Source: Thermus sediminis (GTDB taxonomy: Bacteria > Deinococcota > Deinococci > Deinococcales > Thermaceae). From it: a stretch of DNA of 64,000 nt. The stretch covers positions 434,001 through 498,000 of the forward strand of contig NZ_QURO01000004.1 in NCBI RefSeq assembly GCF_003426945.1, in the 5' to 3' direction. Positions 6,556 to 20,659 of this stretch are shown here, piece after piece (the stretch's first letter is position 1; every line of letters begins with the position of its first letter). The position numbers and the translations under genes are program-made. Under the pieces are notes generated by a model. The model did not search any database. It was not told the origin of the DNA and saw nothing but the letters and a program-made list of their open reading frames with translations.

Positions 6556-8434
<1,879 letters not shown>

Positions 8435-18235: not shown

Positions 18236-19558
18236 CTAAACCCCGAAGAAGCGCTCCAAGAGGCGGAGGAGGGCCAGGGTGCCCCGCTCAAAGTCCCGGA
18301 TGCGGAGGTGCTCGTTGGGGCTATGGACCCGGTTCCCGGGGTAGCCCACCCCCAGGCCCACGGCGGGGGCCTTCAGGTGGTGGAGGAAGGGGTGCATGGG
18401 CCCGGAGCCCGGCATGTTGGGGTAGAGGACCGCCTTTTCCCCAAAGGTCTCCTCCAGGGCCTCCTTGACCAGGCGAACGAAGGGGTGGGCCAGGTCCGAG
18501 CGGGCCGGACGCTCCCCCCTCTCCAGGACCACCACCTCCACGTCGTGGATGCCCTGGGCCTCGAGGTGGCCCCTGAGGAGCCCGGGGATCTCCTCTGGGT
18601 CCTGGTCGGGCACCAGGCGGAAGTCTAGCTTGGCCATGGCCTCGGCGGGGAGGACGGTCTTGGTGCCGGGCCCCCCGTAGCCCGAGTGGAAGCCGTTGAC
18701 GTTCAGGCAGGGCTCGGCAAAAAGGCGCTGGTGGAACTCCAGGTCCCTGGCCCCGCCCAGGAAGTCCCGCACCCCAAAGGTGGCCTTTAGCTCCTCGGCC
18801 TCGTTGGGGATAGCCGAAAGGGCCTCCAGCTCTAAGGGGGTGAGGGGACGGACCCGGTCGTAGAAGCCAGGGATCAGGACCCGCCCCTCCTCGTCCCGCA
18901 AGGAGGAAATGGCCTTGCTGAGGCGGTAGATGGGGTTTTCCACCACCGCCCCGTAGGAGGAGTGGAGGTCAAAGGCCGCCGTGCGCACCCTGAGCTCCAA
19001 GGCCACGATGCCCTTGAGGCCCGCGTAGAGGTAGGGCCTGCCCTTGGCGTCCACACCCCCTGACTCCCAGACCACGGCCTCGGCCCTCAGGAGGTCCTTT
19101 TTGTCCGCTACGTAGGCCTCGAGGTGGGGGCTTCCCACCTCCTCCTCTCCCTCCACCACGAACTTGACCCGGGGTAGGAAGCCGTGTTTTTCCTTGAAAA
19201 GCCTCAGGGCCACCACCCGGGCCAAAAACTCCCCCTTGTCGTCGTGGGTGCCCCGCCCGTACCAGGCCCCCTCCCGCTCCACCAGGGTGAAGGGGTCCGT
19301 CTCCCAGAGGTCCAGGGGATCTGGGGGCTGGACATCGTAGTGGTTGTAGAAAAGAAGGGTCCTCTCCCCCACCCCGCCCTCGGCGTAGACCACGGGGGGG
19401 CCGTACCCCTCGTGCAGGGCGGCAGAAAGCCCTAGACCTTCCAAGATCTCAGCCACCTTCGCCGCTCCCTCCCTAAGGGCTTTGCCCTCGGCGCTCACGG
19501 TGGGAAGGGCCACCAGCTCCGCCAGGAGGGCCTTGGCCTGCTGCAAAAAGGGACTCAT
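18236..19558 (-). CDS. M20/M25 family metallo-dipeptidase
   Basis: A 440-residue di-zinc peptidase of the M20 family, closest in style to carnosinase-like dipeptidases. The metal ligands are seen in NHYDVQPP (His, Asp), GRGTHDDKGE (Asp), the catalytic glutamates in VEGEEEVGSP, and a final His in VHSPNEH. A dimerisation lid occupies roughly residues 190-310. It is cytoplasmic and probably cleaves short peptides. ATG 19558 is the first base after the 17-bp gap shared with mglB. A TACACT -10 ends 9 nt upstream. Confidence 0.9.
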   Translation of the reverse strand: MSPFLQQAKALLAELVALPTVSAEGKALREGAAKVAEILEGLGLSAALHEGYGPPVVYAEGGVGERTLLFYNHYDVQPPDPLDLWETDPFTLVEREGAWYGRGTHDDKGEFLARVVALRLFKEKHGFLPRVKFVVEGEEEVGSPHLEAYVADKKDLLRAEAVVWESGGVDAKGRPYLYAGLKGIVALELRVRTAAFDLHSSYGAVVENPIYRLSKAISSLRDEEGRVLIPGFYDRVRPLTPLELEALSAIPNEAEELKATFGVRDFLGGARDLEFHQRLFAEPCLNVNGFHSGYGGPGTKTVLPAEAMAKLDFRLVPDQDPEEIPGLLRGHLEAQGIHDVEVVVLERGERPARSDLAHPFVRLVKEALEETFGEKAVLYPNMPGSGPMHPFLHHLKAPAVGLGVGYPGNRVHSPNEHLRIRDFERGTLALLRLLERFFGV

Positions 19559-19575
19559 GGTAGACTGAGTGTACC
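19559..19575. promoter_or_regulatory. Divergent promoters in a 17-bp intergenic pseudo-palindrome
   Basis: The complete gap between two divergent ATGs is GGTAGACTGAGTGTACC, which matches its own reverse complement at 15 of 17 positions. Plus strand: TAGACT (19561-19566), 9 nt, ATG of mglB. Minus strand: TACACT (19573-19568), 9 nt, ATG of the peptidase. The geometry is symmetrical, as in the ldh/esterase gap. Confidence 0.55.
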
Positions 19576-20067
19576 ATGGTGGAACCCTCCTTGGTCCTCT
19601 ACGGGGCCCTTTACGAGCGGGCCTTGGGCCTCCTCGAGGACACCCTCCGGGAAACCGGGGCCCGCTACGCCCTCCTCACCGACCGCAAGGGCTTTGTCCT
19701 GGCCCACAAGGAAGCCCTCTGGGCCCCCAAGCCCCCGCCTTTGGACTCCCTGGCCACCCTGGTGGCGGGAAACGCCGCCGCCACCCAAGCCCTGGCCAAG
19801 CTCCTAGGAGAAACCAGCTTCCAGGAGCTGGTCCACCAGGGGGAGCGCGTGGGCCTCTACGTGGACGAAGCCGGGGAGCACGCCCTTCTGGTCCTGGTCT
19901 TTGACCAGAGCGCCCCCTTGGGCAAGGTCAAGCTTTACGGGAAGCGGGCGGCGGAGGGGCTGGCTAGGATCGCTGAGGAGGCCCTAGCCAAGCCTTCTAG
20001 GCCCAACCTGGACACCGAGTACCGCGAAGGGGCCAAGGCCCTTTTGGACCAGCTCTTCGGCAACTAA
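19576..20067 (+). CDS. mglB: Roadblock/LC7 protein MglB, GAP partner of MglA
   Basis: A 163-residue roadblock/LC7-fold protein. The core strand-helix pattern ([14 protein letters not shown], then [21 protein letters not shown], then [28 protein letters not shown]) fits MglB, which acts as a dimeric GTPase-activating protein for MglA. The C-terminal helical tail (about 135-163) is where MglB contacts its partner in other bacteria. The gene is immediately followed by mglA (1 nt gap). In Myxococcus the pair sets cell polarity; in Thermus it is linked by inference to pilus-related polarity. Confidence 0.88.
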
Positions 20068-20068
20068 C

Positions 20069-20659
20069 ATGAGCACCATCAACTTCGCCAACCGTGAGAT
20101 CAACTTCAAGATCGTCTACTACGGCCCCGGGCTCTCGGGGAAGACCACCAACCTGAAGTGGATCTACGGAAAGATCCCCGAGGGGCGCAAAGGGGAGATG
20201 ATCTCCCTGGCCACGGAGGACGAGCGCACCCTCTTCTTTGACTTCCTACCCCTGGACCTGGGGGAGGTCAAGGGCTTCAAGACCCGCTTTCACCTCTACA
20301 CCGTCCCCGGGCAGGTGTTCTACAACGCTAGCCGCAAGCTGATCCTGAGGGGCGTGGACGGGATCGTCTTCGTGGCGGACTCGGCCCCCAACCGCCTCAG
20401 GGCCAATGCGGAGAGCATGCGCAACATGCGGGAGAACCTGGCGGAGTACGGCCTCAAGGTGGAGGACCTCCCCGTGGTGCTCCAGGTGAACAAGCGGGAC
20501 CTTCCCGATGCCCTTCCCGTGGAGATGGTGCGGGCCGTGGTGGACCCCGAAGGCCGGTTCCCGGTATTTGAGGCGGTGGCCACCGAAGGCCAAGGGGTGG
20601 TTGAGACCCTGAAGGAAGTGAGCCGGCTGGTGTTGGCCCGGGTGGGAAGCACCACCTAG
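20069..20659 (+). CDS. mglA: Ras-like small GTPase MglA
   Basis: A 196-residue small G protein with P-loop GPGLSGKTT at 19-27, a switch II motif LYTVPGQ in which Thr78 replaces the usual aspartate (an MglA hallmark), and the guanine-specificity motif VNKRD. It cycles with MglB to define a cell pole. It follows mglB by a single base. The Thermus protein is the structural model for this family. Confidence 0.94.

Follow-up and report, generated by a model that had tools for sequence, protein, structure and literature searches.

The window analyzed here, a 64,000-nucleotide stretch of the genome of Thermus sediminis, contains two genes of this heat-loving bacterium that point apart with 17 letters between them: one encodes an M20 family peptidase, and the other, mglB, is probably co-transcribed with the small GTPase gene mglA (Table 1). 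Both start codons appear believable, since the open reading frames match known families and none of the 27 Thermus genomes compared departs from the 17-bp distance. A sequence-only reading had described this spacer as a palindromic divergent promoter between two ATGs, with both -10 elements 9 nt from their starts, and had pointed to a second example at 7489-7503 of the window; the sequence, the coordinates, the two -10 elements and the description of the second example all proved accurate.

Table 1. Features of the divergent spacer and of the sibling site, in coordinates of the window
Feature	Position	Strand	Remarks
M20 family peptidase, 440 aa	18236-19558	-	Pfam Peptidase_M20 and M20_dimer
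Start codon of M20 peptidase, CAT	19556-19558	-	Read from the sequence
Candidate extended -10 (TGn) of mglB, TGG	19558-19560	+	T doubles as part of the M20 start codon CAT
Intergenic spacer GGTAGACTGAGTGTACC, 17 bp	19559-19575		Both putative promoters inside; 17 bp in 27/27 Thermus genomes
Putative -10 element of mglB, TAGACT (TANNNT)	19561-19566	+	Exactly 9 nt before ATG; all 27 Thermus genomes have TANNNT at this distance
Putative -10 element of M20 peptidase, TACACT (TANNNT)	19568-19573	-	Exactly 9 nt before ATG; the remaining 26 Thermus genomes have TATGCT
Candidate extended -10 of M20 promoter, TGG	19574-19576	-	T pairs with A of the mglB start codon; seen in T. sediminis alone, the remaining 26 Thermus genomes having TAG
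Start codon of mglB, ATG	19576	+	Read from the sequence
mglB, Roadblock/LC7 protein, 163 aa	19576-20067	+	Pfam Robl_LC7; aligned from residue 1 in 50/50 Thermaceae
mglA, small Ras/Arf-like GTPase	20069-20659	+	Pfam Arf; starts 1 bp past the mglB stop
Sibling spacer GGGTAAAGTATACCC	7489-7503		ldh on minus strand, ATG at 7488; esterase-like gene on plus strand, GTG at 7504
Putative sibling -10, esterase-like side, TAAAGT	7492-7497	+	6 nt from GTG start
Putative sibling -10, ldh side, TATACT	7500-7495	-	6 nt from ATG start

The two TANNNT hexamers are adjacent, with one base between them and zero overlap. No TTGACA-like hexamer was seen by eye 16 to 18 bp from either of them; 22 bp upstream of the mglB -10 element there is a run of TTGG. 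The spacer, which holds both hexamers, is devoid of a GGAG-like run, and at 17 bp it leaves no room for a Shine-Dalgarno leader. The spacing of TANNNT was surveyed in 2.46 Mb of stretches from six Thermus genomes, including that of T. sediminis with the window; gene starts were taken from a home-made codon-usage caller that uses no upstream signal, so that single starts may be wrong. Among 2,466 sampled genes, TANNNT ends 6, 7, 8, and 9 nt before the start in 314, 167, 58, and 64 cases, respectively, compared to roughly 10 to 20 genes per position further upstream (10 to 18 each for gaps of 13 to 16 nt). This excess far above background at 6 to 9 nt supports a leaderless promoter reading; the 9-nt spacing, 2 to 3 nt over the preferred 6 to 7, represents a minor but enriched class. 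A TGn triplet is likewise enriched before the leaderless -10 elements of this class (9/44 versus 2.5 at control positions).

Taken at face value, these elements make it quite probable that the 17 bp hold two separate, back-to-back sigma-A promoters driving leaderless or nearly leaderless mRNAs, whose activity, start positions and mutual exclusion we infer from the sequence; the divergent promoter first proposed, with its pair of -10 elements, is still the best reading. RNA polymerase carrying the housekeeping sigma factor would bind in either orientation via the -10 element, without a recognizable -35 element; a candidate TGn extension belongs to the mglB promoter and, in the T. sediminis genome, to the M20 promoter too. 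The plus transcript would be mglBA and the minus transcript the M20 peptidase mRNA, both leaderless or nearly so; with initiation assumed, as is usual, 7 nt past the final T of each -10 element, the starts are predicted at 19573 (plus) and 19561 (minus), 12 bp apart, with A as the first nucleotide and a 3-nt leader (ACC-AUG). Because the hexamers are one base apart, a single RNA polymerase would occupy the site at a time, in one orientation. The relevance of this exclusion depends on promoter strength, given that the basal activity of bidirectional promoters in Escherichia coli was too low for competition (PMC12825309). When one side of such an E. coli promoter is strengthened, output from the opposite side reportedly drops (PMC12825309). 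A more elaborate version, in which start codons and promoters of T. sediminis are reciprocally nested, each codon giving the T of the opposite TGn, and exclusive, so that polymerase competition couples mglBA and peptidase expression, seems improbable to us.

We compared the site across 27 Thermus genomes, all of which encode MglB. In every one the spacer is exactly 17 bp, flanked by CAT and ATG, and carries a TANNNT hexamer on each strand, always at the same place. The commonest spacer is GGTAGACTGAGCATACT, with similar sequences in the 26 genomes other than that of T. sediminis, and a version common in the genus reads GAGCATACT. The inner bases of the -10 elements vary (TAGACT, TACACT, TAAACT, TAGGAT), with both TANNNT frames constant. 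Mean pairwise identity of the spacer among Thermus species is 94%, compared to 71% at four-fold degenerate sites of mglB, which indicates that the spacer is under selection, but not for symmetry. This conservation of the whole spacer exceeds the need of two bare TANNNT hexamers and in that respect speaks against the two-promoter reading.

The effect of gene loss was then followed in 50 Thermaceae genomes, in 14 of which the roughly 1 kb upstream of mglB contains no M20 gene. All 14 retain TGnTASACT on the mglB side, 9 nt before the ATG, and its TG is kept in 48 of the 50 genomes, even where M20 is absent and its former start codon reads CGT instead of CAT, as in several of the 14; this retention suggests that the TG is kept for its own sake. 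Of the 36 genomes that have M20, 34 show the M20-side TANNNT at its fixed register, compared to 4 of the 14 that lack the gene; in the two M20-bearing exceptions, TANNNT stands 7 nt from the M20 start instead, as read from the sequences. The four M20-less genomes with a persisting hexamer count against two promoters. They could be accommodated if only the mglB promoter operated at the site, with the M20-side TANNNT a by-product of the mglB discriminator and M20 transcribed from elsewhere, and the mglB -10 element is indeed the better conserved of the two. We nevertheless regard this arrangement as unlikely: the M20-side hexamer accompanies M20 in nearly all genomes and is mostly lost without it, and what lies upstream of it is mglBA coding sequence, on the opposite strand.

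The sibling site provides a second case for the reading of two separate promoters. Its spacer pairs at 6 of 7 positions, and its anatomy differs, with 6-nt spacing and hexamers overlapping by 3 bp (TAAAGT/TATACT) at 7489, compared to 9-nt spacing and adjacent hexamers at 19559. The esterase-side -10 element is present in 26/26 genomes, and the ldh-side TATACT is found in 12/12 genomes with full ldh, 2/2 with an ldh fragment, and 0/12 without ldh. In the two genomes with a fragment (G011 and G012; L155, L156), the remnant beside the esterase gene matches ldh residues 2 to 48, with the TATACT -10 element intact, and the loss of ldh is apparently recent. In two others (G017 and G018; L145, L148), the ldh start codon occurs a second time, in frame, through a 15-bp direct duplication, CTCTACCCATGAAGG, which possibly adds a second leaderless start for the gene.

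When gene presence and absence were mapped on the mglBA tree, the M20 label changed three times and the ldh label five times (three on well supported branches). The hexamer never changes contrary to the gene label, with events too few for a significant sign test. Altogether, the comparative data favor two independent promoters at the level of sequence, the counts being underlain by few independent events. Separately, in a sister genus (L160, L162-L167, L169, L171-L178), TAATTCGTCACAGGGG-N-GGGTAACG is conserved about 20 to 50 bp upstream of mglB, even in genomes without M20; with GTTACACT it yields an inverted repeat, GTAAC...GTTAC, that a regulator may bind.

The symmetry of the 17-bp spacer was assessed against two expectations. 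Around an unpaired central G, 7 of the 8 possible pairs of GGTAGACTGAGTGTACC are self-complementary, and its reverse complement agrees with it at 14 of 17 letters, so the 15/17 first reported was a slight overcount; with both start codons, the dyad reads CATGGTA...TACCATG. For a site picked for its symmetry, at least 7/8 pairing has a P value of 0.0009 under a base-composition null and, uncorrected, of 0.03 under a null of two facing leaderless promoters with 9-nt spacing. The Thermus consensus spacer pairs at 5 of 8 positions (P = 0.44 under the two-promoter null), and the 7/8 palindrome is private to the T. sediminis genome among the 27. Its private right end, GTGTACC, amounts to three substitutions, which convert the M20-side TATGCT to TACACT and the upstream triplet TAG to TGG. 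In the 27 genomes, CATGGTA-N9-TACCATG occurs exactly once, at the site described here, and with one mismatch the pattern recovers only orthologues of the site and one further position (G016:C5:2325). Degenerate-pattern matches outside Thermus, in two metagenome-assembled genomes (L204, L209), were set aside as chance, having no M20 or MglB homologue.

Could the palindrome be the operator of a dimeric regulator of both genes, with the likeness to -10 elements secondary? The 7/8 dyad symmetry and a spacer conserved beyond TANNNT are what such an operator would look like. The symmetry itself, however, is not conserved in the genus, the two halves change independently upon loss of one gene, and a regulon would need further copies of CATGGTA-N9-TACCATG, of which the 27 genomes hold no second one; we judge an operator quite improbable. 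From sequence comparison, the near-palindrome is likely two mirror-image promoters plus the three private substitutions and not a member of a special palindrome family.

Divergent pairs in the sampled stretches, to which this test is limited, comprised 30 non-redundant pairs with spacers of 6 to 25 bp. TANNNT lies 5 to 9 nt from both starts in 16 of the 30, from one start in 11, and from none in 3. Summed over the 30 spacers, 93 self-complementary pairs were counted, compared to 63 ± 6.8 in their own shuffles, and 0 of 5,000 shuffles reached 93. A two-promoter null was built from column compositions of promoters outside close divergent pairs; against it, the 93 observed pairs stand beside 90.0 ± 7.0 expected, and the 16 spacers with both hexamers yield 66 observed versus 59.0 ± 5.3 expected. 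The simple shuffle is too weak a null because facing leaderless promoters, with a fixed TANNNT and G-rich towards the start, are symmetrical by construction. The predicted excess of palindromy was borne out against shuffles, then, but vanished against the two-promoter null.

The sequence-only reading had also proposed a recurrent promoter class in Thermus, and close divergent promoters do recur. A class defined by GGTA...TACC palindromes, suggested by two examples within one window and by compact spacers more palindromic than simple shuffles, is very hard to credit and was rejected, as the excess is gone under the two-promoter null, one of the 30 spacers (19559-19575 itself) begins with GGTA and ends with TACC, and the genus holds a single exact match. 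What recurs in Thermus, as read from these spacers, is the compact, putatively bidirectional leaderless promoter, not the palindrome.

The hexamers of compact divergent pairs usually overlap, and the 19559 site, with adjacent hexamers and a predicted start-site separation of 12 bp, is an exception. The separations predicted for the 16 pairs are 23 bp (7 pairs), 18 bp (3), 21 bp (2), 16 bp (2), 17 bp, and 12 bp (L032-L111, L212-L251). At 18 and 23 bp the two TANNNT hexamers share bases, so these arrangements need the fewest specified letters, and the sample cannot separate selection from economy. A side observation from the same survey concerns the spacer GCCTCCAAGTCTACCTTGGAGGG between genes for an ABC transporter ATPase and a membrane protein (L036:3190-3212; G000:C4:83190-83212). 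It holds the near-perfect inverted repeat CCTCCAAG/CTTGGAGG, and the spacer as a whole forms 8 of 11 pairs (P = 0.003 against the two-promoter null, uncorrected); the repeat is exact only in G000, and G006 and G026 have CCTCCAAGTCTACCTTGGGAG.

A -10 motif adjoining the open reading frame of leaderless genes is a known mode of expression in Deinococcus-Thermus (Zheng et al. 2011, PMC3160421; Zhong et al. 2025, PMC12340547). Experiments in Deinococcus radiodurans and transcript profiles of Thermus thermophilus agree with TANNNT near starts (PMC12340547), and TACACT is the commonest -10 variant of leaderless genes in D. radiodurans (PMC3160421, PMC12340547). Like these genes, the 19559 site has TANNNT a few base pairs from the start and no Shine-Dalgarno sequence; unlike them, its spacing is 9 nt, compared to the modal 6 to 7, and it serves two genes with two motifs back to back. 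Zhong et al. 2025 (PMC12340547) do not use the words divergent, bidirectional or palindrom-, and a literature search of incomplete coverage found no paper on compact divergent leaderless promoters in Deinococcus-Thermus and no genome-wide start-site map for Thermus.

Bacterial bidirectional promoters are short, roughly symmetrical stretches active on both strands, with start sites 7 to 25 bp apart (PMC10268837, PMC12825309); in E. coli, separations of 18, 10, and 23 bp are common and the -10 positions coincide on both strands (PMC12825309). The 12-bp separation predicted from the -10 positions of the 19559 site would fall in this range, and other compact Thermus pairs fit the 18 or 23 bp of E. 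coli in their predicted separations. In contrast to the preferred E. coli arrangement, the hexamers at 19559 share no base, leaving no reciprocal -10 overlap, and both predicted products are leaderless coding mRNAs, unlike those of the bidirectional promoters described. Altogether, the sequence evidence suggests that the site is likely a well conserved case of the known leaderless, -10-adjacent promoters, here placed back to back.

For studies of this kind, palindromy in short divergent spacers needs a two-promoter null and not a shuffle. The decay of a promoter half once its gene is lost amounts to a natural experiment, usable genome-wide, that tells true bidirectional promoters from chance palindromes. 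For Thermus, the finding shows how, under leaderless translation, a spacer of 14 to 25 bp with no leader can serve two divergent genes.
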